Assembly: GCA_026991575.1 (NCBI GenBank)
Contig: JALXBF010000069.1
Coordinates: 1-64,000, forward strand
Reading direction: 5' to 3'
Origin: Planctomycetota bacterium
GTDB lineage: Bacteria > Planctomycetota > Planctomycetia > JALXBF01
Length of the DNA: 64,000 nucleotides
Within the stretch, counting starts at the first letter, position 1. Every line of letters begins with the position of its first letter. Under the pieces are notes generated by a model that saw only the letters and a list, made by a program, of their open reading frames with translations, was not told the origin of the DNA and made no database searches. Positions 6,678 through 33,071 of the stretch are shown here, piece after piece. Both the position numbers and the translations under genes were made by a program.

Positions 6678-6807
6678 CGCTCAAGAGGGAGTGGCTTCAC
6701 CTCGAGAAGACGGCACGCAGCAAAGTAGTGGCGCGAGCCAGGTAGCGGACTGTGACGTTTCACACCGTCGCATCCCGGGTTGGCAGGTAGCGGGACCGGA
6801 AAGGACA

Positions 6808-11026: not shown

Positions 11027-12550
11027 ATGGCCATTCGTGCTGTGGCCAGTTCCGATGATCTGTCGCCGGACACTCGTCCACCGCGACGGGCTGCCGTACG
11101 GGGACGAGCGAAGTCGGCGCTATATTGGAGCGTCGCCTCGCGCTACGCCACACGCTGTCTTCGGCTAGTGGCTACGGTTATCCTGGCGCGACTGCTGCTG
11201 CCAGAGGACTTCGGCGTGATGGCGATGGCCTGGGCGTTCCTGGCGTTCGTCGCAAACTTTGGAAAGTTGGGGCTCCCTGCGCACATTGTCCGGTTGCCCA
11301 CACTCGATCGAGCGACCCTGAGCACCATATTCTGGATCAATCTGCTCCTTGGTGCTGTCCTAGGAGTCGTGACGCTGCTCTCGGCACCCTTCGCCGTGCT
11401 GTTCTACAGGGATCCGGAGGTCGGCTACGTAGTGGCTACGCTGTCTATTATCGCGTTCAGCATCGGCGTTACGCCGGTGCCGGCGGGGCTGCTGCGACGC
11501 GACATGAGATTTGGGCAGCTGGCCATAGTGGAGGTAGGGCAGGCTCTTGCCGAGGTCGCGTTTTCCATTACGCTGGCTCTGCTGCATTTCGGTGTCTGGG
11601 CGCTCGTTTTCGGGTCGATCGCAGGTCGAGCCGCTAGGGTGATCCTGTTGTACGCGTGCGCCCCTTTTCGGCCAGGGTTGACCTGGCGGTGGGAATGTGC
11701 CCGTGAGGCATTCCAGTTTGGCGGCGGGATGCTGGGAACGTCACTTGCCGCGGTACTCGCTAGAAATGCCGATAACGCCATCATCGGCGCAGCGCTTGGG
11801 TCCCACGGACTTGGCCTGTACTCTTTTTCAAATCGCGTAATGCGTCTGCCGGGCGAGGATCTTGTGGGCGCAGTGGTGCGCGTGTTGGTACCGCGTCTGG
11901 CAGCAGCTAAGACGGACGCCGAGATGGCGTCACTTGTGCGCCGTGCCGTGGGCGCATCCTTGGCAGTGGTGGGACCAGCCTTCATCGGGTTGGCAGTGAC
12001 CGCGCCTTGGTTGGTGCCGCTCGTGTTCGGGGAAAAGTGGAGCGACGCGGTCCTCGTACTTCAGCTTCTGGCGCCGGTAGCAATCCTGCAATCATCCCTC
12101 CGGATCCCTCTGCAGGTATACATAGTTAAGGGAAGGACCGGGTTGCTATTCGCGTGGACTGCGTTTTACACAGCGGTCTGCCTTGTAGTCGTAGCATGCG
12201 GTCTGCCGTTCGGCTTGCATGGGGTCGCGACGGGACTACTAGTGGCCCACGTGCTGTTGGTGTACCCTTGGGTTGGCCTGCCCAAGCGGGCGCTTCGCAC
12301 GCTACAGGTTGGCAAACTGCTCGCGGACATAGCCACTCACGGGGCGGTGGGGAGCGTTGCGTGGGTCGTTGGCATGGCTGTTGTTGCTGTTCTGCACAGC
12401 TGCACTGCGCCTGGGGTCGCACACGTCGCAGGGGGCATGTCGGTGCTTGTCACGTTTGCCGCTCTGTACAGCCTTCTGAGGCCAATAGGAGTGACAGAGA
12501 TCCTAGCGTTGCTGGGAGCAGGCACAGGTGCGAGCCGGCGGAGGGAATAA
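11027..12550 (+). CDS. Oligosaccharide flippase (MOP/MATE superfamily polysaccharide transporter)
   Basis: ORF 507 aa; ARLLLPEDFGVMAMAWAFLAFVANFGKLGLPAHIVR, repeated hydrophobic segments, SFSNRVMRLPGEDLVGAVVRVLVPRLA typical of Wzx/polysaccharide biosynthesis proteins. Confidence 0.85.
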   Translation: MAIRAVASSDDLSPDTRPPRRAAVRGRAKSALYWSVASRYATRCLRLVATVILARLLLPEDFGVMAMAWAFLAFVANFGKLGLPAHIVRLPTLDRATLSTIFWINLLLGAVLGVVTLLSAPFAVLFYRDPEVGYVVATLSIIAFSIGVTPVPAGLLRRDMRFGQLAIVEVGQALAEVAFSITLALLHFGVWALVFGSIAGRAARVILLYACAPFRPGLTWRWECAREAFQFGGGMLGTSLAAVLARNADNAIIGAALGSHGLGLYSFSNRVMRLPGEDLVGAVVRVLVPRLAAAKTDAEMASLVRRAVGASLAVVGPAFIGLAVTAPWLVPLVFGEKWSDAVLVLQLLAPVAILQSSLRIPLQVYIVKGRTGLLFAWTAFYTAVCLVVVACGLPFGLHGVATGLLVAHVLLVYPWVGLPKRALRTLQVGKLLADIATHGAVGSVAWVVGMAVVAVLHSCTAPGVAHVAGGMSVLVTFAALYSLLRPIGVTEILALLGAGTGASRRRE

Positions 12551-15647: not shown

Positions 15648-16586
15648 TTGCTACGCAGGCGTGAGGACGCTTCGCTGGGTGCGCGTTCACGGTGCGAACG
15701 CGGTGCCTCTGTGTGTTTGGCGATGCCGCGATCTTCTACCACGAGAGCTGGCGCGCGGGAGGCGGACTCGGTGGCTTGCGCTGCAGGTGATTGCCGAAGG
15801 CCTGATGGTCGAACCGGTGGCCAGGGTGGCGCCAGGCCGGGGCCGGGTCGAGGGCGCTGGAAGGCGCGGCGCTGGGTCCTGTGGTTACCGAGAAGCTGGG
15901 TTCAGTGGCTACGCAAGAGGTACTACGTGTGGCAGATCCATCGCGGTAAGTTCGACGCCGATGAGCCAGCGTATCACGTCCTCACCCACTTAATCGGGCC
16001 CGGCGATGTGGTTGTCGACGTCGGCGCAAACGTCGGCCGCTACACCATCCAGATGGCAAGGCTTGTTGGACCAAGTGGCCACGTCATCGCTATCGAGCCA
16101 GTACCAGAAACCGCCGAAGTGCTGCTGGCCAACGTCCGCAGCGCTGACCTTCATCAGGTTACCATCGTGCAGGCAGCAGTCTCCGACCGCATCGCTGTAG
16201 CGCAGCTTCGAATACCAATTCAGGATACCGGCTTTGCGGCACACTATTTCGCCCACCTCGTTGATGTCGAAGACCAGCCAAGCCACGAGGTGATCCCGGT
16301 GCTGTGCTGCACCGTCGACAGCCTCGTTGGGAAGCTTCCGGTGAAGCTGGTCAAGATTGACGTTGAAAAACACGAAGACCGGGCCTTGCATGGCATGAGC
16401 CGTACCCTCTCCGACACACGTCCATTTGTCGTGATCGAGCCAAGCGAGCGGAACACGTATGAGCTCTTCAAAGCGTTCGACTATGACGGCCGCTGCCTGG
16501 CCGGGTCCCAAGACTGGCTCTTCTGGCCGCGCGAACAGTCGTCGCTAGCCTCTGAGGCTTTGGCTCGCCTGGGTATCGGTTCGTAG
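15648..16586 (+). CDS. FkbM-family methyltransferase
   Basis: ORF 312 aa, N-terminal ~80 aa probably not coding (start uncertain, ~15840-15930); VVDVGANVGRYTIQMARLVGPSGHVIAIEPVPETAEVLLANV and LVKIDVEKHEDRALHGM. Confidence 0.8.
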   Translation: MLRRREDASLGARSRCERGASVCLAMPRSSTTRAGAREADSVACAAGDCRRPDGRTGGQGGARPGPGRGRWKARRWVLWLPRSWVQWLRKRYYVWQIHRGKFDADEPAYHVLTHLIGPGDVVVDVGANVGRYTIQMARLVGPSGHVIAIEPVPETAEVLLANVRSADLHQVTIVQAAVSDRIAVAQLRIPIQDTGFAAHYFAHLVDVEDQPSHEVIPVLCCTVDSLVGKLPVKLVKIDVEKHEDRALHGMSRTLSDTRPFVVIEPSERNTYELFKAFDYDGRCLAGSQDWLFWPREQSSLASEALARLGIGS

Positions 16587-16813
16587 CCGGCGCCACACGA
16601 CCGGTGCTTGCAGATGGCGCGCGGTGCTCCGGCACACACTGCCCCGCTGGCGCCGAGCGGCGCTCAGGGCAAGCGCATAGCGATAACACGGCTCCGCATG
16701 CCTGTGCCGTGTGCACGCGACAAGAGGGCGCGACCGGAACGCTGACACGTTTCATACTCTGGAGCGGGTTCCCATCTAAAAAAAGAAGACGCTGATCTGC
16801 GGGCCTTCCTGCG

Positions 16814-19800
16814 ATGACGCTCCGCTTTGCCGAATTGACGGGCGATCGTAGTCCATTGCACGTCGACCGCCAGTACGCGCAGCGCGCGGCGTACGGACGA
16901 CCGGTCGTCCACGGCATGCGCGTCGTCCACGAGATGCTCGCCGTACTTGCGGCACACGTGTGCTCACGTCACCACCAAACCGCTCAGCAAAGCCGCCACG
17001 ACCTGCTACAGCCGACGACACCGCCAGGTGCCCCGACGCCCGGGAACAGTTCAGAGGACGCCGGCAAACGACATGTGTCCGCGCCTGGGCGTCCAGTGAT
17101 GACGGCAACCGGGGCAATCACCGTCGAATTCCGCAACCCCGTGTTCCCCGGCGACCGGCTACGCATCAGCTGGTCCCGGACCGGTTCGGCCACCGCTGCT
17201 GGAGGACCGTCCGCGCCGGCTACCGGCGCTACGGCCACACCCAACGTACACACCCATGGCAGGGAAGCGGTCCAGAACATGGGGCAGGCATCAGGTGCGT
17301 CGGAACTTCTCGACCAAAGCGACAACAACAGCTTGGGGCAAGCCAGTAACCGCACATGCCCCATCCACGACGACTTGTCCGCGTATACCTTACGTGGTGT
17401 CGCTGAGACAGAACGAGGTATCGCGGCGGTTGTCGAACTAAGTGTTCCTTACGATACCGAACTGGCCCGGAGGGCAGCCTCGGCGAGAGAAGCTCTCCGC
17501 CCCGTCTACGTGACGCTGGCTGAGCCAGCGGCTGATCCCCAGGGAGCAGAGCAATCGGCCACGTTTAACGACGGTGCGCCAAGCGTCCATCCTCCCGAAG
17601 AGGTCAACCGCCTTGACATCGACGACATCCTACTCGATGAGCCAGTCAGGGGCACCTACACGTATCCGGGCACCTCGGCCGCTGACTTAAGACCCGAATT
17701 GCTAACACTCCTGCGGCTCCTTGGACTGTGTAGCTACCTGGTTGGCATGAAGCTGCCGGGCCAACAAGCGCTCTTCGTCAAGGCTCAACTTGAATGGCAC
17801 GCGCTGCAGCACAACCCGCTAGAGGTTCCACTCCACTACGAACTTACGCCAACGCACGTTGATCGAAAGCTTAGACTGGTCGATTGCGCGCTCCTGGTGC
17901 GCACTGCCGACGGTGAGCAGGTAGCCACAGGAAGGCTGCGCAGCTACGTGCGATTCACGCCGGCGGTCCCGAACGTGGCAGCCGTTGTGGGGTATGCGCG
18001 TGATCTGTCCAACGCGCTGAGCGGCAAAGTTGCGCTTGTCTGCGGCGCAAGTCGGGGGCTCGGGGCTGAGATTACCGCGACCCTCGCGCTGGCCGGCGCC
18101 ACGGTGTACGGCACCTATCGATCGAGCAGCGAAGATGCGAAGTCTCTGGCCTCGGCTATCACCCAGCGCGGCGGAAGAGTAGAGCTGCTACAGGGCGACG
18201 TCGGTGATTCGCGGTGGCTCAACGACGTTGTCGAAGGAATCGTCCACAAACACGGGCGTCTGGATCTGCTCGTCCTCAACGCCTGTGGTCAACCGAAGAT
18301 CGGCGCCACCGGCGATGCGTTCCACGACTACCTGACGCGGAACCTCCAGCTCGTCTCCGTGCCGTTGGAGACCGCTTTGCCGGCCTTGCGGCATAGCCGC
18401 GGTGCGGTTTGTCTGGTCTCGTCCAGCTTTGTTGCGCAAGCACCGCGCGGCCTGGAAGCGTATGTGGCTCTAAAGAAGACTGCCGAAGAGCTCATCCGAG
18501 CCCAGGCTTCGGCTGCGCCAGAGGTCTTCTTCCAGATCGCCCGTCCTCCGAAGCTTCAGACCCGCTGGAACGATTCCCCCGCTGGCGTCGTCGGCGCGAT
18601 TCCTTCCTGGTGTGCGGCCGTCGCCATAGTGCAGGGGCTCGCAGCGCAGGCTGACCACCGCGAAGCACCGCGCGACAACGTCCTTGTGCTCGAGCAGTTC
18701 CCGTTGCTCGAGCCGCGGGACGAAGCGGGCTCACGTAGGACAGTATCCCTGGCGATTGCGGCCACGTTCACTGCCGAACCGCTTGGCGAAGAGCTCAAAC
18801 GCTGGGCCCGCCGATTGGCTTGGCAGTTGGACGCGCGTTTCGCTGGTTACAACCAGGTGGTCCAGGAGTTGATCAGCCCGGTTGGTCTGTTCGCCGCCAA
18901 TCGCGACGGTTTGAACGTCGCTCTGGTACGCGTCCGGGATTGGCTGCGGGAACTGTCCGAAGAGGTAGGCAGTGACGCGCAACGATTGCAGGCTCACCTG
19001 GACGACGTAGGCAACCAGATCGTCCAGGCACTGGAGCAGTACGCGGCGGCGGGACGAGCCCCGCTACTGCTTATCGTTGCCCCGTCTGACCTTCCAAAGG
19101 CCACCCCGGCTGACGAACCGATAGCCCGATGGGAGCGAGAACTGATCGCGTGCGCGGAGAAGCTCCGCGCGGTGCACGTCCTTGACGCCAGGCAGTGGCA
19201 CAGCGTATACGGACTGGACACCGCGGATGCAGCTGCCTACTACGACCGCAATCGAGACCGAATTGGACACATCCCGTTCACGCCGTCGTACTACGCGTTC
19301 CTGGCGACGCTGATTGTCCGGCGTGCTTATCGGCTGCTAACGCCTCCGCGCAAGACGATCGTCGTCGATTGCGACAACACGCTCTGGGACGGGGTCGTCG
19401 GAGAAGTTGGCCCGCAGGGTGTGCGATTCGACGAGCACCATCTTGCTCTGCAGCGCAAGCTCGCGCGCCTGGCGGAGTCAGGCGTACTCGTGTGCCTGTG
19501 TAGCAAGAACCAAGAAGACGACGTCTGGGCCGTGTTCGCTCAGCGTGCGAACGAGATGCCGTTACGTCGCGAGCACATCGTCGCGGCTGCCATTAACTGG
19601 ATGCCCAAGTCGCAGAACATCACCGAGCTCGCGCGTAGCCTGAACCTCGGACGCGACAGCTTTGCGTTCCTCGACGACAACCCGGTCGAGTGCGCAGAGG
19701 TGCGCGCAAACTGTCCGGATGTGCTCACGGTCCAATGGCCGCGCGAGCCCGAGCAGGCCCTGAAGCTGCTCAACCACTTCTGGGAGCTCGACCCGCTGGC

Positions 19801-22800
19801 GGCCACAGCGGAGGACCGCAAGCGGACGGAGATGTACCGGCAGGAATTCCAGCGCCAGCAACTGAAGGCGCAAGCGAAAGATTTCGCCGATTTCCTCCGG
19901 TCTCTCGAACTCAAACTGGACTTCCGCCCGTTGAACCGCGAGGATTTGCCGCGCGCCTCGCAACTGACACTACGCACCAACCAGTTCAACTTCACCACAA
20001 TCCGCCGTAGCGAGGCTGAACTCTGGGAGCTCGTCGCCGAGCATGGGTACCGGTGCTGGACAGTACGCGTATCGGACCGGTTCGGGGACTATGGAATCGT
20101 CGGCCTTGTCGTTACCAAGCCGATCAGCGACGCGAGCGACCAACGTGTGCTTGAAGTAGACACGTTCCTGCTGAGCTGTCGCGTGCTCGGTCGTGGCGTC
20201 GAACATAAGATCGTAGCGTTCCTAGCGGAGCAGGCGCTGGCGCTCGGGGCTGAGTACCTAAGATTCCACATTCGCTACACGAAGAAGAACGTCCCGGCGA
20301 GACGGTTCCTGCAGTCGATCGTACCAGCGGAGTGCCTCGAGACCGGCGACGACCACATGTCTTGCATCCTGGAGGCTCGCCGCTACGTTGACCTCAGCTA
20401 CGATCCAGAGCGGCACGCGTGCGAGTCAGAAACGGCCGACGCTCGCTCTGGGACCGACAACCGCGGAAGCGGGGAAGATGGCGGTGCCGAAGACGTCGTG
20501 ACCTGGACGCGTGAGCGTGAACGGCAGATTCTTCGGACCGCTTTCGAGTGGGCTGATCTCGGGAGGGCGAACAGCTCCGGGCAAACCGCCGTCGCCCAGC
20601 AACAACACGAGCCGGCCCCCGCGGGCGCTGCCACGACCGGCGAGGTCCGCCACGTTGTCCTTGATGCGTTTGCCCGGCAACTGGGGATGCCGGCCGAGCA
20701 GGTCGCGCGCGTTGATCGATTGGACCAGCTGGGGTGTGACTCGTTCAAGATCGTCGAGATCACCGTTGCTTTGCTTGAGCGATACCCGCAGCTGCCTGCC
20801 ACGCTGCTGTTCGAGCATCAGACGGTATCGGAGATAGTCCGGGCAATTGAGTCGCACTCTGCCGGCAGTAGTAGCCGCCAGCCGTCTGCTCCTCTGGCTG
20901 CGGCGCGACCGAGGGCTCGTACCGTCAGCGACATTGCCGTGGTCGGTCTGGCATTGCGTTGCGCCGGGGCGAATAGCACTGAGGAGCTCTGGCAGCTGCT
21001 TCGCAGGAAGGGGAGCGCCGTGCGGGAGGTGCCTACCGACCGGCGCCATTTCCTCGGGGTGCTGAGGGATTCGCGGAAGCACTGGGCCGGCCTGCTCGAT
21101 GATCCGGACCGGTTCGATGCCACGTTCTTTGGTATCGCGCCACGCGAAGCCGTCATGCTCGATCCCCAGTTGCGTCTGCTGCTGGAAGTCTCATGGGAAG
21201 CGCTGGAGCAGGCAGGATGGACCGACGGCACAGAGATCGCCAACACTGGCGTGTTCGTGGGGGTCATGTACGGAGACTACGTCTTCGCAGCTAACCAGTG
21301 GGCCGAATCGCAGGCGTACCCGTACCGCTGCTGGGAAGGGTTCAGCATTGCCAACCGCCTGTCCCAGATTCTGGGATTCCACGGCCCCAGTGTCGCGGTC
21401 GACACGGCCTGCTCCTCTTCGGGAACGGCGCTTTACATGGCGTGCCGTGCGCTGCGAGCCGGGGACTGCAAAGCCGCCGTCGTCGGCGGTGTGAACCTGA
21501 TCCTTGATCCCAACCGTTTCAGCCAGCTGGGACGCCTCGGTATCTTGTCCCCCGATGGTCGCTGCCGGCCGTTTGGAGAAGAGGCGAACGGAACGGTACT
21601 GGGCGAAGGAGCCGTCGCGCTTGTACTGATGCCGGTTGATGAGGCTGTTAAGCAGGGTTGCACCATACTGGGTGTGATCAAGGGGGTGGGCATCAGCCAC
21701 GGCACCGGCACAGTCGGTTTCACGGCTCCTAACCCGACAGCGCAGGCGATTGCGATTCGCGAAGCGATTAGAGCGGCGGGAATCGATCCGAGAACCATTT
21801 CGTTTGTCGAAACGCACGGCACCGGAACAGCATTGGGTGACCCGATTGAGACACGAGGACTGCAGCTGGCGTACGAGGATCGCTCACTGTGGTGCGACGA
21901 GGAGCTGGCCGACGCCGCGCCCCTGCGGCTCGGTGCGATCAAGCCGAACGTCGGCCACCTGGAGGCCGGTGCCGCGTTAATCGGTGTAGCCAAGGTTCTC
22001 TTGCAGTTTCAACACCAAGAGCTCGCTCCCACGATCACCTCGGAGCGGCCAAATCCTCAGGTTCCCTGGGACCGTACCCGATTTGTTGTTCAACGTGACC
22101 GCGCCCCGTGGGAGCGGCCTCGCCTGCGGTGCAAGGATGGAACGGTGCGAGAGTTCCCACGCCGGGCCGGAGTCAGCTCGTTCGGCGTTGGCGGTGCGAA
22201 CGTGCACGTTGTGCTGGAGGAACCGCCGAGTGTGGCTCTCGAACAGCCGACGCACGACGAGCCGGACCGGACGTGGCACGTCCTGGCTCTTTCGGCACGT
22301 AGCCCCGAGGCCCTTCGTGCCTATGCCGGCAAGGTTGCTGAGTTCCTCCGCCGTACGACCGACGACCAGATGGCCAACGTTTGTTACTCGTTGGCCGTCG
22401 GTCGAAGAGCGTTCGAGTACCGGCTCGCGCTGCCCTGTCGTTCGGCTGACGACGCACGTCGAACTCTGGCTGCCTTTGCAGAAAGTGGTGAGCTCCGAGC
22501 AGGCCACACAGGACGCACCGCCGGACAACGCCCGCGGGTGGCGTTCCTGTTCACCGGGCAGGGAGCCCAGTACGTCTCGATGGGCAAGGGACTGTACCGA
22601 TCGAACCCAGTGTTTCGGCGCGCACTGGACCGATACTTCGCGCTGGTCAACGAACACCTTGATCGTCCGCTACAGGAGGTTGTGTTCGGCGAGGATGACG
22701 AGCTTCTCAAGCAGACGCGATACACCCAGCCGGCGCTCTTCTGCGTGCAGCTTGCCCTGGCCGATCTGTGGCGAGGCTGGGGGGTTGTGCCTGACATCGT

Positions 22801-25800
22801 GTGCGGGCATAGTGTCGGTGAGATTGCCGCGATGGTGGTCGCCGGTGGTTTGAGCCCCGCGGACGGTGCCCGACTGGCTGCAATTCGAGGCCGTCTGATG
22901 GGTGAGCTTCCGGCAGGGGGGACAATGGCCGTGGTGGCGGCACCCGAAGCGGTCGTCCGTGGAGTGCTCGCATCAGGAACATGCATCGCCGCGGTAAACG
23001 GTCCACGGCAGACGGTTATCGCCGGACCGGTAGAAGCTGTCGACCAAACCGTGCGCCAGCTGGAAGCCTCCGGCCACAAAGTGACCAGGCTCCCGGTGTC
23101 GCACGCGTTTCACTCGTCGCTGATGAAACCGATCTTGGGACCGTTCCGCGAGGCGATTCGGGATATCCGATTCCATGCTCCAAAGCTGACCTTCGTCAGC
23201 ACTGTGACTGGGGCTGTCGCCTCAGAGGAACTTACCGATGCCCAGTACTGGGTGGACCAGATCCGGCGGCCTGTACGCTATGCGGATGCCGCGCGCACGA
23301 TCCTTGAGATGGCCGACGTCTGTTTGGAGATCGGTCCACATCCGGTCCTGGTCGGACTCGCACAGACACTGCCGGAAGCGTCCGGCAAGACCTTTGCTTC
23401 TAGCTTGAGGCGTCAGCGCGACGACGAGGCGGTCGTGGCCGACGCGGTTGCCGCCCTGTTCGCGGCAGGCATGCCCATCGACTGGCGCGGCTGGGACGAG
23501 GGGCGAGCACGGCAACGCGTGCAAGTGCCGAGCTATCCGTTCCAGCGAAAGCGGTACTGGATCGGTGCGGTCCCCACGGTCTCGTGCTCCGCGGCTGAGG
23601 AGAGCACCGAACAAACCATAGAACTGGAGACGTACCGACTCGATTGGATCCAAAAGCAACTTGATCCCGGACAGAATCCAGCACAGGTCCTGGTTGTTGG
23701 GACCGGGCAGGAAGCCACGAAGGCTCTCGCCGCCTTCGATTCGGCCGGGATTCCGTGTGCGCACGCGTCCTCGCTACGTGAGGCCGATGGCTCCGAAGCT
23801 GAGCGCTGCCTTGTGCTTGATTTCCGGGCATTGGATAGTGACCTTTCGCCCCAGAGTTTCCCGCAGTTCCTGGCCCGTCTGGCCACAGAACTGTGTGACC
23901 TGCAGCGCCGTTGGAAGGGCCGCAACCACAGTTACTGGCTGCTGACCAAGAATGCAGTCTGCGTCGGGTCGGAGCGTCTGGATCCATGTCACAGTGCCTT
24001 GTGGGGCTTCATGCGTTCAGCAATGCTTGAGTTGCACGACGTGGCCCTCGGCGTGGCGGACGTCTGCGCCGACGGCTGGACCGAGGTGGCAACCGCTCTT
24101 GCCTCGGCCGGTGACGAAGACCAGCTGGCGTTCCGCAATGGCGACGTGTACGCTGTCCGTCTGAGACGCTTTGAGCTGCCGGACAATGCGCAGCAGCCCG
24201 ACGTCGATCCGAACGCCATTTACCTTATTACCGGTGGTACCGGATGGCTGGGTGGTGCGATCGCAATTGAGCTGGCCAGGCTTGGGGCGCGGAAGATATG
24301 GCTCGTCAGCCGCCGCGGATTGGTCTCCGAAGGCGTTCTCGAAGAGCTACGGCGGCTCGGGGTCGCCAGCGAAGATGTGCGTGTCGTACGAGCTGACGTA
24401 GCATGTCCCGACGCGGTGCGTCGACTAGCCGATGAGATCCGTTCCGCTGGGGCCCGGCTCGGCGGCATTGTTCATGCGGCCGGCGTTGATCGGCCCACGT
24501 CGCTCAGCAGGCTCCAGGCGGACGATGTGGCGGCCGTCTGGGCGGGCAAGGCAACTGGTGCATGGCAGATTGCTGAGCTTGCGCGCGAGTTCCGGCCAGA
24601 CTTCGTTTGTTTCTTCTCCTCGCTGGCGGCGGCCGTGGGGGCTGCCCGTCGCTCCCACTATGCGGCAGCCAACGCCTTCCTGGACGGTCTCGCCTGTCAG
24701 CTGCACAGCGAAGGCATTCGGGCCACGTCGCTGGCATGGGGGCCGTGGGTTGGTGGTGGCATGGCTGACGCTGGGACGCTGAAGGAGTTTGCACGCATAG
24801 GTAACCTGGCGATTGGCCGGGACGAGGGAACTGGGCTGTTTAGCAAAGTGATCGCGCAGACGACCGTGCCCGCTCACATCGTGGCCGCACGCATTGACTG
24901 GGCACGCTTCGCGCCGGCCTACGAGCTGGTCAGAACTCGTCCGATCATCGAGCTCCTGCGGCCGGGCCCGGTTGCTTCCGGTCAGCGGACCGCGTTTGAC
25001 CGCAGCGCCGTCGAGCGAATCGTGCGCGAGGAATTCGCCCGCGCCCTCGGCTACAACAACGCCGACGCGATCCGTCGAGACGCGGAACTGCTCGCGCTCG
25101 GACTCGATTCGCTCCTCGCCGTGGACATCCTCACGCGGCTTCGCAAGCGATTGCCTCTGCCAGCGGGATTGTCGCTGTTCGACTATCGGACGCTGCACGA
25201 CGTGGTTGACGCGATTGCCGCGTACGCAGTGTGTACGGAAGCGGCGCCTGCGGGTGCGCCGCCTCAGTCCAATGCCGAAGTGCTCGACATCCTTCGCCGT
25301 GCCGCGGCCGAGACCCTTGGACTCGATGTCGAGGCGGTCGCGACGGACCGGCCGCTCAGTGCCCTTGGCATGGACTCGCTGATGGTTGCGGACTTCCTGA
25401 CCCGCGTGCGCAAAGCCACAGGCCGGTCCCTGTCGTCGTTTGCTCTTGACCGGGACACACTGAGTGAACTGGCGGAACAACTGTCCGCGGATGGTGAGAA
25501 GAGCCGCTCGACCGGCCGACCCGCAACACCATCGGGACGAGCCGTCCGGTACCGGCCGGAACTGGAGCCGGCCATCTACTCGTTCTGCCGGGAAGCATGG
25601 CCCGATCGGGCTCCTGAGCTGATCCCCGCGCGCTGGCGTTGGATGTTCGTGCAGTCGGCGCAGCGCCTGGGTATCGATCCCGCGGTGTGGCTTTATGTTG
25701 AAGATGGCCGGGTGCTGGGCCACAACGGAGCCATCCCCGTGCGTCTCCAGGTCGGTGACCGCGAGGTCACCACAGCCTGGTTTGTCGACACGATGGTCCT

Positions 25801-26659
25801 GGAGGAGGCTCGGGACAGAGCCGTCGGTAGCGCGGTCATGCTGGCATCGGTCGCGGACTGGCCGTTTAGCCTTTCGCTGGGTCAGACGCCGTACATGCGT
25901 GAGATTCTTCGTCGGCTGGGCTGGAAAGACGTTTGTCCGCTGAACACGTATGTGTACGTGCTTCGTCCGATGGCGTTGGGCAGAGCGAAGGTGACCACAC
26001 CGATCGTCGGAACACTGGCCGGAGCAGCGCTGGCGTTGAAACAGTGGTGGCACGGGCACCCGGTAGCGAACGGACATTCGCGGGCTTTTCGCGTTGAAGA
26101 GGTGGCCTCCTACGGTCCGGAACAGGACGAGTTGTGGCAGCGCGTCCGGGCGCACTTCCCGGTTGCTGTCGTCCGTGACCGATCGTTTATGCAGTGGAAG
26201 TACGTGGAGCAGCCGGGCCAGGAGTTCATCCGCTTGCACCTGTGGGACGGGGCTCGTTTAGCTGGGACGGCGGTCCTGCTTGTGCGGAGACCGGACCGCG
26301 TCTACCGATATCGCCGAGCGTTCTTGGTTGACTTGCTTGTCGATCCGGATGATGAGGTGGCCGTCGGTGCGCTGCTATCCGCAGTCATTGCGCGGGCTCG
26401 CCAGACCGGCTCGGCGCTCCTGACGTGTTACCTCACCTGTCCGCGGCTGGAAACCTGCCTTGTGCGTGCGGGATTCTGGCGCCGTGAGCCCCAGCGATAC
26501 CTGCTTGTGCGTCCGGACCGGGCAGAGGTTGACGTCCGTCTGCTCCTTGACGGCAGGCAGTGGCTGCTGACCATGGGCGATTCGGATATCGATCGGCCGT
26601 CGTGGACAGATGAAGAGCTGGATCCCTCCACGGCCCGGTCCACAGCGGTCGGCCTGTAG
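16814..26659 (+). CDS. Type I polyketide synthase megaenzyme: MaoC/hotdog - SDR - FkbH-type HAD-IIIC - ACP - KS - AT - KR - ACP - ACP - GNAT
   Basis: Uninterrupted 3281-aa ORF. AELTGDRSPLHVD (MaoC); GASRGLG with YVALK (SDR, Tyr ~18461); DCDNTLWDGVVGE (HAD ~19367); LGCDSFK (ACP Ser 20741); DTACSSSG (KS Cys 21410), VETHGTGT, KPNVGHLEAG; GHSVGE (AT Ser 22811) and HAFH (~23102); TGGTGWLGG, FFSSLA and HYAAAN (KR); LGLDSLL (Ser 25109) and LGMDSLM (Ser 25376) ACPs; C-terminal GNAT-like region from ~25540. Confidence 0.93.
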   Translation: MTLRFAELTGDRSPLHVDRQYAQRAAYGRPVVHGMRVVHEMLAVLAAHVCSRHHQTAQQSRHDLLQPTTPPGAPTPGNSSEDAGKRHVSAPGRPVMTATGAITVEFRNPVFPGDRLRISWSRTGSATAAGGPSAPATGATATPNVHTHGREAVQNMGQASGASELLDQSDNNSLGQASNRTCPIHDDLSAYTLRGVAETERGIAAVVELSVPYDTELARRAASAREALRPVYVTLAEPAADPQGAEQSATFNDGAPSVHPPEEVNRLDIDDILLDEPVRGTYTYPGTSAADLRPELLTLLRLLGLCSYLVGMKLPGQQALFVKAQLEWHALQHNPLEVPLHYELTPTHVDRKLRLVDCALLVRTADGEQVATGRLRSYVRFTPAVPNVAAVVGYARDLSNALSGKVALVCGASRGLGAEITATLALAGATVYGTYRSSSEDAKSLASAITQRGGRVELLQGDVGDSRWLNDVVEGIVHKHGRLDLLVLNACGQPKIGATGDAFHDYLTRNLQLVSVPLETALPALRHSRGAVCLVSSSFVAQAPRGLEAYVALKKTAEELIRAQASAAPEVFFQIARPPKLQTRWNDSPAGVVGAIPSWCAAVAIVQGLAAQADHREAPRDNVLVLEQFPLLEPRDEAGSRRTVSLAIAATFTAEPLGEELKRWARRLAWQLDARFAGYNQVVQELISPVGLFAANRDGLNVALVRVRDWLRELSEEVGSDAQRLQAHLDDVGNQIVQALEQYAAAGRAPLLLIVAPSDLPKATPADEPIARWERELIACAEKLRAVHVLDARQWHSVYGLDTADAAAYYDRNRDRIGHIPFTPSYYAFLATLIVRRAYRLLTPPRKTIVVDCDNTLWDGVVGEVGPQGVRFDEHHLALQRKLARLAESGVLVCLCSKNQEDDVWAVFAQRANEMPLRREHIVAAAINWMPKSQNITELARSLNLGRDSFAFLDDNPVECAEVRANCPDVLTVQWPREPEQALKLLNHFWELDPLAATAEDRKRTEMYRQEFQRQQLKAQAKDFADFLRSLELKLDFRPLNREDLPRASQLTLRTNQFNFTTIRRSEAELWELVAEHGYRCWTVRVSDRFGDYGIVGLVVTKPISDASDQRVLEVDTFLLSCRVLGRGVEHKIVAFLAEQALALGAEYLRFHIRYTKKNVPARRFLQSIVPAECLETGDDHMSCILEARRYVDLSYDPERHACESETADARSGTDNRGSGEDGGAEDVVTWTRERERQILRTAFEWADLGRANSSGQTAVAQQQHEPAPAGAATTGEVRHVVLDAFARQLGMPAEQVARVDRLDQLGCDSFKIVEITVALLERYPQLPATLLFEHQTVSEIVRAIESHSAGSSSRQPSAPLAAARPRARTVSDIAVVGLALRCAGANSTEELWQLLRRKGSAVREVPTDRRHFLGVLRDSRKHWAGLLDDPDRFDATFFGIAPREAVMLDPQLRLLLEVSWEALEQAGWTDGTEIANTGVFVGVMYGDYVFAANQWAESQAYPYRCWEGFSIANRLSQILGFHGPSVAVDTACSSSGTALYMACRALRAGDCKAAVVGGVNLILDPNRFSQLGRLGILSPDGRCRPFGEEANGTVLGEGAVALVLMPVDEAVKQGCTILGVIKGVGISHGTGTVGFTAPNPTAQAIAIREAIRAAGIDPRTISFVETHGTGTALGDPIETRGLQLAYEDRSLWCDEELADAAPLRLGAIKPNVGHLEAGAALIGVAKVLLQFQHQELAPTITSERPNPQVPWDRTRFVVQRDRAPWERPRLRCKDGTVREFPRRAGVSSFGVGGANVHVVLEEPPSVALEQPTHDEPDRTWHVLALSARSPEALRAYAGKVAEFLRRTTDDQMANVCYSLAVGRRAFEYRLALPCRSADDARRTLAAFAESGELRAGHTGRTAGQRPRVAFLFTGQGAQYVSMGKGLYRSNPVFRRALDRYFALVNEHLDRPLQEVVFGEDDELLKQTRYTQPALFCVQLALADLWRGWGVVPDIVCGHSVGEIAAMVVAGGLSPADGARLAAIRGRLMGELPAGGTMAVVAAPEAVVRGVLASGTCIAAVNGPRQTVIAGPVEAVDQTVRQLEASGHKVTRLPVSHAFHSSLMKPILGPFREAIRDIRFHAPKLTFVSTVTGAVASEELTDAQYWVDQIRRPVRYADAARTILEMADVCLEIGPHPVLVGLAQTLPEASGKTFASSLRRQRDDEAVVADAVAALFAAGMPIDWRGWDEGRARQRVQVPSYPFQRKRYWIGAVPTVSCSAAEESTEQTIELETYRLDWIQKQLDPGQNPAQVLVVGTGQEATKALAAFDSAGIPCAHASSLREADGSEAERCLVLDFRALDSDLSPQSFPQFLARLATELCDLQRRWKGRNHSYWLLTKNAVCVGSERLDPCHSALWGFMRSAMLELHDVALGVADVCADGWTEVATALASAGDEDQLAFRNGDVYAVRLRRFELPDNAQQPDVDPNAIYLITGGTGWLGGAIAIELARLGARKIWLVSRRGLVSEGVLEELRRLGVASEDVRVVRADVACPDAVRRLADEIRSAGARLGGIVHAAGVDRPTSLSRLQADDVAAVWAGKATGAWQIAELAREFRPDFVCFFSSLAAAVGAARRSHYAAANAFLDGLACQLHSEGIRATSLAWGPWVGGGMADAGTLKEFARIGNLAIGRDEGTGLFSKVIAQTTVPAHIVAARIDWARFAPAYELVRTRPIIELLRPGPVASGQRTAFDRSAVERIVREEFARALGYNNADAIRRDAELLALGLDSLLAVDILTRLRKRLPLPAGLSLFDYRTLHDVVDAIAAYAVCTEAAPAGAPPQSNAEVLDILRRAAAETLGLDVEAVATDRPLSALGMDSLMVADFLTRVRKATGRSLSSFALDRDTLSELAEQLSADGEKSRSTGRPATPSGRAVRYRPELEPAIYSFCREAWPDRAPELIPARWRWMFVQSAQRLGIDPAVWLYVEDGRVLGHNGAIPVRLQVGDREVTTAWFVDTMVLEEARDRAVGSAVMLASVADWPFSLSLGQTPYMREILRRLGWKDVCPLNTYVYVLRPMALGRAKVTTPIVGTLAGAALALKQWWHGHPVANGHSRAFRVEEVASYGPEQDELWQRVRAHFPVAVVRDRSFMQWKYVEQPGQEFIRLHLWDGARLAGTAVLLVRRPDRVYRYRRAFLVDLLVDPDDEVAVGALLSAVIARARQTGSALLTCYLTCPRLETCLVRAGFWRREPQRYLLVRPDRAEVDVRLLLDGRQWLLTMGDSDIDRPSWTDEELDPSTARSTAVGL

Positions 26660-26696: not shown

Positions 26697-28532
26697 ATGT
26701 GCGGGATTGCGGGGCAAGTTGGGGTTGGCGTTGAGAAGGCCGCGGTAGAGCGGATGCTGACTTGCATCGTGCACCGCGGGCCGGACGACCAGGGGGTGTT
26801 CGCCGATGAAGGGATTGCCTTCGGCATCCGGCGGCTGAGCATCATCGACATTGAGGGCGGTAAACAGCCCGTTTCCAACGAGGACGGATCCATTCACGTG
26901 GTCCTCAACGGAGAAATCTACAACTACGTCGAACTCCGTCAGGAACTGCTCCGCCGTGGTCACCAATTCCGCTCCCAGGGCGATACCGAGGTCATCGCTC
27001 ATCTGTACGAAGAATACGGTGACCGCTTCGTCGATCACCTCAACGGCATGTTCGCCATTGCCCTGTGGGATAGCCGCAACCGCCGGTTGCTGCTTGTTCG
27101 TGACCGGCTAGGCAAGAAACCCGTGTACTGGTGCTACCAGGATGGCAGGTTGTGGTTCGGATCCGAGCTCAAGTGCCTGCGGGCCGTCGATGCCCCGGTG
27201 GGACAGACGGATCTCACGTCAGTGTACCACTACCTGGTCCTGGGGTACATGCCGCACCCGCACACGGTGTACACAAACGTCCGCCAACTGCCTCCAGGGG
27301 GGATGCTGGAGTACCGCGACGGGCATGTGCGGGTGGATCGGTACTGGGAGTTCCGAGCCAGCGTCCGTCAGTGGGACGAACGGGAGGCGGCGGAGCACTT
27401 GCGTGACCTGTTAACGGATGCGGTCCGCATACGGTTGCGCAGCGACGTTCCGTTGGGGGCCTTCCTGAGCGGTGGTCTGGACTCCAGCATCGTCGTTGCG
27501 CTCATGGCACAACTCAGTCCAGCGCCGGTGAAGACGTTCCACATCCGGTTCAGCGACGATCCGGCCCCGGAGCACGAGTATGCGCAGGCGGTGGCCGACC
27601 AATATGGGACTGAGCACCACGTACTGACGGTCACGCCGGAAAAGATGGACGTGCTGGACCGTATCCTGGACATGTACGACGAACCGTTCGGTGACTCGTC
27701 CGCCGTCCCTACTTGGTACGTGTCCGGGCTGACGAAGCAGTACGTCACGGTAGCACTTGCCGGTGACGGGGGCGACGAAAGCTTCGCCGGGTACAACCGC
27801 TACCGCGTTGCACTGCAGCGCCGCCGCCTTCGGCGGTGGATTGGGCCGGCGTGCCGGTTGCTTGGACCAGCTGTCTGGCATCTCACCCCGCACAGCTTCC
27901 CCGGCCGACGGATGATCCGTGCCCTCGGGATGGATGGATATCGCGAATTTGCTTCGGGTATGCCGGAACTTGAGACGCGTTGGCTATTGGGCCCGGCGCT
28001 TCGACCGGCTGTGAACGGCACGACGACATGGGAGGTGGTCCGGCGCGATATCGAAGCGGGGGATCCTACAGACCCACTGTCGCCCTTTACTGCGTTCGAC
28101 ACCAGGCGCTATCTGCCAGACGACATCCTGGTGAAGGTCGATCGCGCCAGCATGTCGCATGCCCTGGAGGTGCGTGCGCCGCTGCTGGACTACCGCGTGG
28201 TGGAATTTGCGGCGACATTGCCCGCAGAGCTGAAGCTCGACAATCGAGGGGGCAAGCGGCTCCTGAAGATTGCTTTCGGTGACATGTTGCCGGAAAAGGT
28301 GCTGGAGCCCCGGAAGCGCGGCTTTTCCGCGCCGCTGCGGGAATGGCTTGCGGGCGAGCTGGCGCCGATGATCGAATCGGATGTGCTCAACGGCATTCTG
28401 GTACGGGAGCGGCTCATCGATCGCGATGCTGTGCAAGTCCTCGTCGACGAGCACCGCCGTGGCCGCCGCGACCATCGGAGGATGCTGTGGCGCTTGCTGG
28501 TCCTTGCGCGCTGGCTGCGGAGGTTCGGGTGA
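26697..28532 (+). CDS. asnB: Glutamine-hydrolysing asparagine synthase family amidotransferase (exosortase-A-associated-like)
   Basis: ORF 611 aa; N-terminal MCGIAG nucleophile Cys, HRGPDDQG, NGEIYNY, and FLSGGLDSSIVVALMA PP-loop. Confidence 0.93.
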   Translation: MCGIAGQVGVGVEKAAVERMLTCIVHRGPDDQGVFADEGIAFGIRRLSIIDIEGGKQPVSNEDGSIHVVLNGEIYNYVELRQELLRRGHQFRSQGDTEVIAHLYEEYGDRFVDHLNGMFAIALWDSRNRRLLLVRDRLGKKPVYWCYQDGRLWFGSELKCLRAVDAPVGQTDLTSVYHYLVLGYMPHPHTVYTNVRQLPPGGMLEYRDGHVRVDRYWEFRASVRQWDEREAAEHLRDLLTDAVRIRLRSDVPLGAFLSGGLDSSIVVALMAQLSPAPVKTFHIRFSDDPAPEHEYAQAVADQYGTEHHVLTVTPEKMDVLDRILDMYDEPFGDSSAVPTWYVSGLTKQYVTVALAGDGGDESFAGYNRYRVALQRRRLRRWIGPACRLLGPAVWHLTPHSFPGRRMIRALGMDGYREFASGMPELETRWLLGPALRPAVNGTTTWEVVRRDIEAGDPTDPLSPFTAFDTRRYLPDDILVKVDRASMSHALEVRAPLLDYRVVEFAATLPAELKLDNRGGKRLLKIAFGDMLPEKVLEPRKRGFSAPLREWLAGELAPMIESDVLNGILVRERLIDRDAVQVLVDEHRRGRRDHRRMLWRLLVLARWLRRFG

Positions 28533-28641: not shown

Positions 28642-29982
28642 ATGCGAATCCTGTTCATCTCCAAGTGGCATGTCCTCCCGGCGGATACCGGGGGGAAGAT
28701 TCGGACATGTCAGGTGCTGAAGGGGCTGGCACGGCGGCACGAAGTGCATCTGGTGTATAACACGGTCGGCAGACCGAATGCCAGAGGTCGCTGGGAAGGT
28801 AGGGCTCTCAGCGGCCATGGGTGCTCCTTCGGGCGCGACGCAGGCGGGCCTGGTGATGTACCCTCCGATAGTGGGTTCCTGGATGGCGTGCGCTGTCATG
28901 CGGTGCCGACCACGACGCCCGCGCAGCGTGACTGGCGGTACTGGCTAGCCCTGGGACGTAACTTCGTTCACCCGGCTCCTTTTAACGCCCACAAGGATCG
29001 CGATCCGGCCCTGATACGAGCGGTCAGCGAACTGTGCCACCGCCTGCAGCCGGACGTCGTCATCTGCGACTTCGTCCAAACGGCACTCAACTGCAACGGG
29101 ATCCACCACTGGCCCAGCGTGCTGTTCCAACACAACGTCGAGGCGGAAGTCTTCTGGCGACAGGCGCGGCGCGCCCCGAAAGGAACGTGGCGTGCACTGT
29201 TTGCCCTGCAGGCGCAGAAGATGCTCCGCTTCGAACGCGACATGGTCCGGCGGTTTGACGTGGTGGTGGCGATCTCCGAGCGAGACAAGGTTCTTTTCGA
29301 ACAGCTCTACGGCTGCCGGAATGTGTTCGTCATCGATACGGCCGTCGATGTCGAACGATACGCTGACGTTCGGCCGGATCGACGTTCAAGACGCGTGCTC
29401 TTCATCGGCGGGCTTGACTGGATCCCGAACCCTCATGGCGTTACTCACTTCTGCCGGCGCATCTGGCCTTTGATTCGCGCCGAAGTCCCGGACGCGACGT
29501 TCGAAATCGTCGGTCGCAATCCCGGACCGGACCTTGCCGAGGTCGTCTCCGGCATACCGGGTGTCACTTTGGTGGGCACGGTACCCGATACCCGGCCATA
29601 CCTGGCGCGGGCCGCCGTTTGCGTCGTGCCGCTGTACATGGGTGGGGGTACGCGGATGAAGATCTACGAGTATATGGCCCCCGGGCTTCCCGTTGTATCG
29701 ACTTCGCTGGGCTGCGAGGGGCTGCCGGTGCGCCATGGCGAGCACCTGCTGGTAGCCGATTCGGACGAGGCGTTTGCCCGCGCTGTCGTTCGGCTGCTGA
29801 GCGATCCGGAGTACGCACAGCGGATCGGGCAGCAGGCCGCCAGCTTCGTCCGACAGAATTTCGCAGCCGACGTCGCGGCCGTCCAGTTCGAAGGCCACCT
29901 ACGCCAGGCGATCCGGTTGTTCCGCGCAAGACGAACCGCGGAGAATAACCGTTCTGTGAAGGGGGCCAGCGCGAGGGCATAG
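28642..29982 (+). CDS. Family 4 glycosyltransferase (TIGR03087/XrtA-associated-like)
   Basis: ORF 446 aa; MRILFISKWHVLPADTGGKIRTCQVLKGLARRHEVHLVYN, NVEAEVFWRQARRA, YMGGGTRMKIYEYMAPGLPVVSTSLGCEGL. Confidence 0.85.
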   Translation: MRILFISKWHVLPADTGGKIRTCQVLKGLARRHEVHLVYNTVGRPNARGRWEGRALSGHGCSFGRDAGGPGDVPSDSGFLDGVRCHAVPTTTPAQRDWRYWLALGRNFVHPAPFNAHKDRDPALIRAVSELCHRLQPDVVICDFVQTALNCNGIHHWPSVLFQHNVEAEVFWRQARRAPKGTWRALFALQAQKMLRFERDMVRRFDVVVAISERDKVLFEQLYGCRNVFVIDTAVDVERYADVRPDRRSRRVLFIGGLDWIPNPHGVTHFCRRIWPLIRAEVPDATFEIVGRNPGPDLAEVVSGIPGVTLVGTVPDTRPYLARAAVCVVPLYMGGGTRMKIYEYMAPGLPVVSTSLGCEGLPVRHGEHLLVADSDEAFARAVVRLLSDPEYAQRIGQQAASFVRQNFAADVAAVQFEGHLRQAIRLFRARRTAENNRSVKGASARA

Positions 29983-30209
29983 GGCTACGTAGATATTGCC
30001 AGGCGACCAAACTCAGCGATCGCATCCGGTGTGCTGCACCAGCGAGCCACCTGGTCTAGACCAACTTGAGCAGGACCATCTCGTCCGTTGTAGGGTCGGC
30101 GAGAAGACTGATCTGGACGGTCGGCCGGACAAGATTGCAGCCGATTGAGACGATCGGACGCGCTGATCCACGGGCACGCTGCGTTCGGTTCTTCGCGACG
30201 ATCGGGTTC

Positions 30210-31298
30210 GTGGACACGAATAAATCACCTGCTGTGAGCGAGCGCGGCCAAGTCGTCTATCTGATCGTTACGGTCGACACTGAAGAAGAAGGGCTTTGGG
30301 GGGGAAGCTACCCGGTCGACGGCGGCACCGTGCGCAACGTCCTCGAAGGAGTTCCACGGTTTCAGGAGCTGTGCGATCGGTACGGAATCCGGCCCGTGTA
30401 CCTGATCGACACTCCGGTGGCGACGGATCGTGAAGCGGCCAGTCTGTTGCGATCACTCCAGGACGAAGGGCGATGTGAAGTCGGCGCGCACCTGCATCCG
30501 TGGTGTACGGAACCTCACATCGACTACAGGTTCCCTCGCGATTCGTACATGATGAACCTACCAGTCGAGGTGCAGCGGGCGAAGCTTCGGACACTGACGC
30601 AGCAGATCGAAGAGTCCGTCGGCCACCGTCCCGTTTCGTTCCGCGCCGGCCGCTACGGGCTGGACCGGCACGGAGCCGCGATTCTGCATGAACTGGGCTA
30701 TGCGATTGATTCGAGCGTCGTTCCGTACACGCGTCACACGGCTGAGGGCGGACCGGATTTTAGTTCTGCTCCACTCGCGCCCTTTCACGTCGATACCGAC
30801 TCGGCGGATCCGACAGGTGCTCTCGTCCCGACCGACGGCGATGACGGACTGCTGGAAGTGCCCGTGGCCGCGGGCTACACGAGAACTCCCTTTGAGTGGC
30901 GGCACAGGCTGCGCGACAGGCTGGAACGCTCATTCCTGCGGAAGCTCAAGGCTGTCGGCGTTATCGATCGGCTCGGCATCGCGCGCCGGGTCAAATTCTC
31001 CCCGGAGCAGGCTAGCTGTTCGGACATGCGAGCGCTGGTGGACTGCTACCTCAAGTTGGGCTTGCCTTGCATGGTGATGATGATGCACTCCAGCTCGCTT
31101 GCCGCAGGCTACTCACCGTATGCCTCTGATCGAGCTGCTCTGGAGCGGTTTTACGCGCGACTAGAAGATGCGTTTGCCTACGCCCTGGAACGTGGCTTGC
31201 AGCCGGTGACTTTCCGCGAGTTCCACGCCGCCTTCGTAAGCCAGGGGACCGTTCCTAAGGAGCAAGCTGGCGCCGGTAGCCTGCCCAGCGCTCGGTGA
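30210..31298 (+). CDS. Polysaccharide deacetylase-like protein (WalW-like)
   Basis: ORF 30066-31298, probable GTG start 30210 or 30234; VYLIVTVDTEEEGLWGG, CEVGAHLHPWCTEPH, RAGRYGLD resemble NodB-fold motifs. Confidence 0.75.
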   Translation: MDTNKSPAVSERGQVVYLIVTVDTEEEGLWGGSYPVDGGTVRNVLEGVPRFQELCDRYGIRPVYLIDTPVATDREAASLLRSLQDEGRCEVGAHLHPWCTEPHIDYRFPRDSYMMNLPVEVQRAKLRTLTQQIEESVGHRPVSFRAGRYGLDRHGAAILHELGYAIDSSVVPYTRHTAEGGPDFSSAPLAPFHVDTDSADPTGALVPTDGDDGLLEVPVAAGYTRTPFEWRHRLRDRLERSFLRKLKAVGVIDRLGIARRVKFSPEQASCSDMRALVDCYLKLGLPCMVMMMHSSSLAAGYSPYASDRAALERFYARLEDAFAYALERGLQPVTFREFHAAFVSQGTVPKEQAGAGSLPSAR

Positions 31299-31574: not shown

Positions 31575-33071
31575 ATGAGTGTAACTATCTGCGACCTGTT
31601 CCGCTGGTCGGCCCGGTCTCATCCCGGGGATCCGTGCATCTGGTACAAAGGGCGTACGTACACATATGCCCAGCTGTGGAACCAGAGTGTGGCGATCGCT
31701 GGCTGGCTACGTCAACAGGGTCTCCGGGCCGGAGACCGGGTCCTGATCTACGGTAAGAATTCGCCGGAGTACGCAGCGGCATATTTCGGTACATTATTAG
31801 CGGGCGGGATCGCTGTCCTCTGCGGACCGGCCTTTTGCCAGCGTGATCTACGCGAGATCGTTCGCGATAGCCACCCCCGCGCTGGCATTGGCTGCGGTTC
31901 ATTTTTTCAAACGCTCCAGCGCTGCGGCGCGCTTCCGGCAGGTATCCCAACACTGTCGTTCTGCGAGCCAGACGGCGACGGGACCGTGTCATCGCTGCAT
32001 GCGCAGGCGCGCGGGCTAGGAGATAACTGCCCTGAACCAGAGCCGTCGGATTTCGCCCATATCATCTACGGCACTGACAGCGCTGGAAGGTGGCGCGGCG
32101 CAACCTTTCGCCACTGCCATGTCACCCACGCCGTCCGTACGCTGCTGACCACGATCGAATTGGACGACGCAGTGCGGGCCGCCGTGACTCTGCCGTTCCA
32201 CGAGTCGCCGGGGTTGCTCGGGCTGGTGCTGTTGACCGCAGTCGGAGCAGAAATCGTCCTTGCCAACTCAACCCCATTGCCAACCCACGACGATGTGGAC
32301 ATGCTGTGGTTGCGTTCGGCTGCTGTGCCCGAGGTCATCGATAACGCCGGATCAGACCTGCCCGAGCAGTTGATCTGTTGGGGGCCCAGCGACACCGACG
32401 TGCACGGTCCCCTGCGGGAACTGGGGGTGCAAACCGCCGCCTTCCACTGGCACCACACGGTGGCTGGCCCGATCCTGAGGATCCTGTCGTTTGACGGGGA
32501 TGCTGTGGGCAAACCAGTCGATGGCATCCACGCACAGGTGCAGAGCAAATGTTCCTGCGGTCATGGTGACTGTCCTGGTGAGCTCGTTGTCTCGGGCGAT
32601 TCCGTGATGGCAGGGTACTGGGACCGCATTCAGGCAGCAGCTGTGGACGGTGAGCAGGAACCTGTCGGCACCGGCGACCTGGCCATCAGGGAATCTGAAG
32701 ACCGAATTCGCCTCCTGGGCAGAGCCGACCGATCGTTCTACGTGGAGGGCCGACGCGTCCACCCTGCGGAGATCGAAAGAGTGCTGGTGCAGCTCACAGG
32801 AGTGCGCCATGCTGTGGTTGTGCCACTAACGTCGAGCAGCGGCGCTAACACCGCTGGAGCGGTTGTGGTGCTAGCCTCCGCTGCCGCTACAAGCAAGCAG
32901 GAGATCCTGGAGTACTGTGCTCAGCAGCTCCCGGAACACAAGCGACCGGTTCGGTTGGTTGTAGCCGATCGTATACCGACCAACGGTGACGGCTCGCCTG
33001 ACACACGAGCCATACGAGCGCTACTTCTGAATGAGGCCGCATCCGGTAGGTCTTCCGTGAGTCAGGCTTGA
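31575..33071 (+). CDS. AMP-dependent ligase (ANL) family protein with degenerate catalytic motifs
   Basis: ORF 498 aa; N-terminal GRTYTYAQLWNQSVAIAGWLRQQGLRAGDRVLIYGKNSPEYAAAYFGTLLAGG and C-terminal GDLAIRE..DRIRLLGRADRSFYVEGRRVHPAEIERVL are clear ANL; P-loop and A10 lysine not conserved. Confidence 0.8.
   Translation: MSVTICDLFRWSARSHPGDPCIWYKGRTYTYAQLWNQSVAIAGWLRQQGLRAGDRVLIYGKNSPEYAAAYFGTLLAGGIAVLCGPAFCQRDLREIVRDSHPRAGIGCGSFFQTLQRCGALPAGIPTLSFCEPDGDGTVSSLHAQARGLGDNCPEPEPSDFAHIIYGTDSAGRWRGATFRHCHVTHAVRTLLTTIELDDAVRAAVTLPFHESPGLLGLVLLTAVGAEIVLANSTPLPTHDDVDMLWLRSAAVPEVIDNAGSDLPEQLICWGPSDTDVHGPLRELGVQTAAFHWHHTVAGPILRILSFDGDAVGKPVDGIHAQVQSKCSCGHGDCPGELVVSGDSVMAGYWDRIQAAAVDGEQEPVGTGDLAIRESEDRIRLLGRADRSFYVEGRRVHPAEIERVLVQLTGVRHAVVVPLTSSSGANTAGAVVVLASAAATSKQEILEYCAQQLPEHKRPVRLVVADRIPTNGDGSPDTRAIRALLLNEAASGRSSVSQA

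Follow-up and report, generated by a model that had tools for sequence, protein, structure and literature searches.

Polyketide synthases (PKSs) are usually regarded as makers of antibiotics and lipids. Several described systems come close to the one reported here. In the lankacidin pathway, lactoyl-ACP derived from 1,3-bisphosphoglycerate (1,3-BPG) has been proposed as the starter (PMC6162330), and, according to PMC4765723, lactyl-ACP arises from glyceryl-ACP through the dehydratase-ketoreductase (DH-KR) proteins of this pathway and of that of FR901464. GNAT domains also occur within PKSs of the CurA type, where they decarboxylate malonyl-CoA and load acetyl (PMC7901079). On the glycan side, bacterial amino sugars can carry N-linked 3-hydroxybutanoyl, 3,5-dihydroxyhexanoyl, and glyceroyl groups (PMC10609480), and a dedicated gene set N-acylates perosamine with tetronate in the V. 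cholerae O1 antigen (PMC3441752).

The locus described here lies in a 64,000-nucleotide stretch of Planctomycetota DNA (the window) and differs from each of these systems. The lankacidin-type cluster encodes DH-KR, ACP, and FkbH as separate genes that supply a large antibiotic assembly line, whereas the window PKS has all of them joined to a single extension module and a GNAT. The CurA GNAT starts chains; that of the window PKS follows the last ACP, and the starter would come through FkbH. The V. cholerae O1 antigen resembles our proposal in carrying a short hydroxyacyl group on an amino sugar, but no PKS is involved there.

Domain order and recurrence of the PKS

The PKS frame is open for 3281 codons from its ATG and for 3287 codons from stop to stop, which leaves just 6 codons upstream of the ATG. 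The chance probability of an open frame this long is ~5e-40 at the ORF's own base composition, so that the single uninterrupted 3281-aa ORF claimed in an earlier, sequence-only reading is borne out. A Pfam/NCBIfam parse also returned the domain order of that reading, i.e., MaoC, SDR, FkbH, ACP, KS, AT, KR, ACP, ACP, and a weak C-terminal GNAT. The features of the PKS are as follows.

16814..26659, + strand: single-module type I PKS, 3281 aa, with a DH-KR-FkbH-ACP loading cassette and a C-terminal tandem GNAT; same order in five complete homologues
16814..17989, + strand: MaoC-type double-hotdog dehydratase (DH); Pfam MaoC, D11/H16 in GDRSPLH, aligned to the lankacidin-cluster DH-KR and two large PKSs
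18005..18733, + strand: SDR/KR partnering the DH, predicted to reduce an alpha-ketoacyl group; Pfam adh_short, S-Y-K present, motif SSSFVAQAPRGLEAYVALK
18791..20353, + strand: FkbH domain, VDCDNTLW motif at 851; TIGR01686, 318 bits (cutoff, 147)
20606..20848, + strand: ACP1 (LGCDSF); Pfam and motif
20930..22039, + strand: ketosynthase (KS), DTACSSS / ETHGTGT / KPNVGH; Pfam and motifs
22544..23425, + strand: acyltransferase (AT), GHSVGE and HAFH (malonyl type); Pfam and motifs
24215..24748, + strand: ketoreductase (KR) without the LDD motif (not B-type); Pfam and motifs
24971..25213, + strand: ACP2; Pfam and motif
25289..25480, + strand: ACP3; Pfam and motif; missing from one complete member (L042), kept in the others
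25541..26599, + strand: tandem GNAT-like acyltransferase ending GDSDIDRP; Pfam Acetyltransf_9 on the isolated domain, alignments, low-confidence model

Profile matches span residues 4-48 (MaoC), 405-566 (SDR), 846-1169 (FkbH), 1373-1742 (KS), 1911-2204 (AT), and 2468-2645 (KR), and three PP-binding stretches carry the ACP serines in LGCDSF (1306), LGLDSL (2762), and LGMDSL (2851). To this order we add a second, noncatalytic hotdog half at ~280-392, detectable by homology only, a low-complexity insertion within the hotdog region, and the resemblance of the C-terminal ~2910-3262 to two tandem GNAT folds, for which model confidence is low. A Pfam scan of the whole protein found no thioesterase domain. 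All residues checked in FkbH, KS, and AT are present, and the KS C-H-H, AT GHSxGE, KR Tyr, and ACP Ser of a type I cis-AT PKS module were all found, in agreement with the one KS-AT-KR module plus ACPs read earlier.

A scan of species genomes recovered the complete architecture in a Vicinamibacteraceae metagenome-assembled genome (MAG) of the Acidobacteriota (L042) and in a Planctomycetota MAG (L043) that appears, from several hits with matching contig numbers and coordinates among the relatives of both, to share its class with the window genome. Searching the class of L043 added three complete members (G935, G1002, and G1133, with frames of 3244-3312 codons) and a contig-edge fragment (G965). 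Best-match lists from 98 relatives and from 393 genomes of the phylum gave no second copy outside the PKS's own genome; further members surfaced only from a different sample of the class. Besides the window PKS, the family comprises five complete members and one fragment from Planctomycetota and Acidobacteriota, with overall identities to the window PKS of 38-43% for complete members and 38-45% across all seven sequences. The MaoC D/H, FkbH DCDNTLW, KS Cys, AT Ser and HAFH, KR Tyr, SDR Y-K, and ACP Ser are kept in all six complete members, the window PKS included, which upholds the malonyl-type motif read earlier in the AT. LDD marks B-type KRs and a tryptophan marks the A type; the LDD motif is missing in all complete members, and the A-type tryptophan occurs in L043 and G1133. 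L042 has one downstream ACP versus two in the other complete members. The loading cassettes of the window PKS, L042, and L043 group together (support, 95/96).

The sequence-only reading did not place the full domain order among described PKS types. This agrees with a limited literature search of open-license papers, which found no PKS of this domain order and no PKS in an exopolysaccharide (EPS) locus of such kind; the novelty is narrowed by a loading half of known type and by the recurrence of the whole order in other genomes. The family is apparently undescribed, and its members come from two or more bacterial phyla. The predicted loading and extension chemistries are of known kinds, and what is undescribed in the searchable literature is the C-terminal tandem GNAT fusion, the EPS setting, and the two-phylum recurrence.

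The loading cassette and its predicted starter

The FkbH domain, the only copy in the genome, had been read as a loader using 1,3-BPG, an assignment supported by its family membership. A Pfam Acetyltransf_1 match at 1065-1166 in the whole-protein search falls within FkbH and is distinct from the C-terminal GNAT. Relatives of the loading half were found by tblastn of residues 1-679 against plasmids, and four were informative. Two uncharacterized large PKS genes, from Streptomyces anulatus (L038) and Ensifer canadensis (L039), open with the same MaoC-SDR-FkbH-ACP-KS series; residues 302-1341 of the window PKS are collinear with the former (36% identity, 1066 aa) and residues 270-1345 with the latter (35%, 1111 aa). 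Unlike the window PKS, both have a first module without AT, further modules, and no C-terminal GNAT. S. griseofuscus (L041) and another Streptomyces (L040) have MaoC and SDR together in a stand-alone protein of ~500 aa, with ACP and FkbH genes close by, and the adjoining genes are consistent with the LkcA, the discrete DH LkcB, and the LkcC described in PMC6162330. In this lankacidin-type comparison, made with the homologous pSGRIFU1 region in place of the lankacidin plasmid NC_004808, the window DH-KR part is 32% identical to the DH-KR beside the lankacidin genes and its FkbH 38% identical to that of the cluster; the same chemistry from 1,3-BPG to lactyl-ACP is predicted for both.

The window PKS thus combines an FkbH carrying DCDNTLW with a homologous DH-KR keeping D/H and S-Y-K, and by this homology it should prime with lactyl rather than glyceryl. 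The earlier proposal of a glyceryl starter extended to a 3,4,5-trihydroxypentanoyl chain is probably wrong, because the MaoC-SDR pair ahead of FkbH is homologous to the lankacidin-side DH-KR. The starter is probably lactyl and the likely product 3,4-dihydroxypentanoyl-ACP instead of a trihydroxy acyl group. An FK520-type methoxymalonyl unit was rejected; neither acyl-CoA dehydrogenases nor hydroxyacyl-CoA dehydrogenases are represented among the scanned neighbors.

Relative to the lankacidin-cluster DH-KR, the window PKS starts ~8 residues late, inside the first helix of the hotdog. This late start, together with the long low-complexity insertion, means that the window DH could be impaired. 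In the stretch around the PKS start (16740-16830), a short poly-A run lies upstream, and after it a different frame reads DADLRAF, similar to the missing hotdog helix; a truncated PKS start or an indel is possible.

The C-terminal GNAT and the polysaccharide neighborhood

The sequence-only reading had the domain order right but gave no role to the C-terminal GNAT or to the surrounding polysaccharide cluster. The GNAT is weak in the whole-protein search and passes the cutoff once the domain is searched alone, and DSDIDRP is found near the C terminus in all complete members. Its structure model (pLDDT, 55) matches tandem GNATs such as MAB_4324 and Eis with global TM-scores of just 0.2-0.3, counted here as weak support, and no sequence relative of the region was found in the PDB. 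A CurA-type loading role was discarded, since this GNAT is C-terminal and not N-terminal ahead of the loading ACP. The genes around the PKS include the following.

5298..6677, + strand: GT4 glycosyltransferase; profile match
11027..12550, + strand: Wzx/MOP-type polysaccharide flippase; profile match
15648..16586, + strand: FkbM-type methyltransferase, immediately upstream of the PKS; profile match
26697..28532, + strand: AsnB-type amidotransferase, XrtA/PEP-CTERM-like; TIGR03108, 610 bits, below the cutoff of 817; Asn_synthase
28642..29982, + strand: GT4 glycosyltransferase; nearest TIGR03087, below cutoff
30066..31298, + strand: polysaccharide deacetylase-like protein, assigned by homology; homologues directly upstream of the PKS in L043, G1133, and G965
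31575..33071, + strand: AMP-forming acyl ligase; profile match
33264..34349, + strand: FemAB, XrtA/PEP-CTERM-associated; TIGR03019, 327 bits (cutoff, 260)
34373..35587, + strand: GT2 glycosyltransferase; profile match

By its gene content, this cluster resembles an XrtA/PEP-CTERM exopolysaccharide locus: TIGR03019 scores above cutoff, TIGR03108, TIGR03087, and TIGR03098 below, and the exosortase of the genome is located on another contig. To our knowledge, a PKS is not part of any described XrtA/PEP-CTERM exopolysaccharide locus. The cluster also contains one ORF (6646-9015) in which a zinc-type alcohol dehydrogenase is joined to a Gfo/Idh/MocA oxidoreductase, and downstream of it lies a 1109-aa ORF (36996-40325) with no Pfam match at E 0.01.

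The deacetylase-like protein has a weak Pfam PF01522 score of its own (E = 0.05). Its assignment comes from homology, with 37% identity over 334 aa to the L174 protein at 7432-8397, which itself passes PF01522, and 51-53% identity to proteins of L181 and L183; a structure model with a pLDDT of 39 was discarded. The gene lies 3.4 kb downstream of the window PKS, and its homologues in L043, G1133, and G965 are immediately upstream of theirs. The G965 locus has several glycosyltransferases and a UDP-sugar dehydrogenase, and GT2 genes follow the PKS in G1133. No deacetylase was found near the PKS in G935 and G1002, no polysaccharide genes were seen on the contig of G1002, and no glycosyltransferase on that of L042, where a PrsT-like TPR gene is present; these observations weigh against a role of the PKS in polysaccharide decoration.

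Stand-alone homologues of the tandem GNAT occur in related clusters. One adjoins a deacetylase and a GT4 gene in L174. In L181 (7356-17742), the order is deacetylase, Fe-ADH, AMP-ligase, LuxE, LuxC, SDR, GNAT, an unknown gene, and FemAB, and L183 (2689-12832) carries deacetylase, AMP-ligase, LuxE, LuxC, GNAT, and FemAB in corresponding order. These clusters possibly encode a separate pathway that supplies hydroxyacyl groups for acylating sugars. The pattern suggests that, in related EPS loci, homologous GNATs are fed either by such a discrete set or by a PKS, although the lack of a deacetylase near the PKS in G935 and G1002 speaks against this. The Fe-ADH/ligase/LuxE/LuxC set of L181 recalls the V. 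cholerae O1 tetronate gene set, a possible lead. Deacetylases and GNATs of such types are frequent in EPS loci, and their pairing may therefore reflect general cluster content.

Predicted product and acceptor

From the domain content, the conserved residues and architecture, the cassette homology, and the neighborhood, we infer the following chemistry, number of extensions, and acceptor. FkbH would load glyceryl from 1,3-BPG onto ACP1, where the MaoC-type DH and its neighboring SDR would turn it into pyruvyl- and then lactyl-ACP. KS and AT would add one malonyl unit, and KR would reduce the beta-ketone to give 3,4-dihydroxypentanoyl on the downstream ACPs, a single round of extension being the simplest reading. 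The tandem GNAT would then move the acyl group from ACP to an amine, most likely that of an amino sugar freed by the neighboring deacetylase-like enzyme. Release onto an amine would require no thioesterase, which would explain its absence. We put at about 0.5 the probability that this one-module PKS supplies a surface polysaccharide with a short hydroxyacyl group by N-acylation of an amino sugar. The fuller proposal, held more tentatively and at somewhat less than even odds, is that of a self-contained PKS that builds a C5 dihydroxyacyl group out of 1,3-BPG and malonyl-CoA and N-acylates an exopolysaccharide amino sugar in cis, with a dedicated deacetylase, replacing the discrete acyl-supply set of related clusters across Planctomycetota and Acidobacteriota, i.e., a new class of glycan-tailoring enzyme. 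In the literature searched, 3,4-dihydroxypentanoyl was not found as an N-acyl group.

The nature of the acceptor leaves room for an unlikely alternative, in which the acyl group goes to a nonsugar amine (an amino acid, a lipid, or a small-molecule amine) to yield a secreted metabolite with no decoration of a polysaccharide. GNATs accept many amines, and the PKS genes of G1002 and G935 have no deacetylase next to them; this reading is countered by the deacetylase-GNAT pairing and by the glycosyltransferase-rich loci of the window, which also has the flippase and FemAB genes, and of G965, along with the GT2 genes of G1133. Iterative use of the module, with the two downstream ACPs raising flux toward a longer polyol chain, is less probable. 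Most members do combine a single module with two downstream ACPs, and no hand-over partner is in sight, since no KS in the genome other than that of the window PKS is of type I PKS size (other KS matches sit in 414-479-codon frames), but L042 manages with a single downstream ACP, and a GNAT within the same polypeptide suits release following a single round.

The remaining two readings concern the MaoC domain. Direct extension of glyceryl-ACP1 to 3,4,5-trihydroxypentanoyl, with MaoC and SDR idle or active elsewhere, would accord with known pathways where FkbH alone yields glyceryl-ACP and with the late start and interruption of the window MaoC. It sits poorly with the retention of the MaoC D/H and SDR Y-K in 7/7 sequences at such low overall identity and with the same MaoC-SDR-FkbH cassette in the DH-KR relatives, and we give it a marginally smaller chance than iteration. 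We consider it slightly less probable still that MaoC acts after condensation on the beta-hydroxyacyl chain to give an unsaturated 4-hydroxy- or 4,5-dihydroxypent-2-enoyl product; although MaoC hydratases normally use 3-hydroxyacyl thioesters and the window PKS has no other DH, placement beside SDR and FkbH matches the systems whose DH-KR has glyceryl-ACP as its substrate (PMC4765723).

If the proposal of surface-sugar N-acylation is true, a one-module PKS would act in the tailoring of surface sugars, with the tandem GNAT as its release step, and a hydroxyacyl amide is predicted in the exopolysaccharides of bacteria about whose surface glycans little is known. Since loading, one extension, and release would reside on one chain, starter identity, chain length, and acceptor are each testable with one protein.

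More MaoC-SDR plus FkbH sets, as separate genes or as Paenibacillus fusions, occur in Mangrovihabitans (L050), Nocardia brasiliensis (L058), and Paenibacillus, where they are fused inside large proteins in L048 and L049. DH-KR/FkbH starters may thus exceed the two published cases. Within the class of the window genome, FkbH proteins of ~1000-1100 aa in L009, L010, and L012 run, as read from their sequences, into an ACP-like and a thioesterase-like region and are apparently minimal FkbH-ACP-TE proteins.
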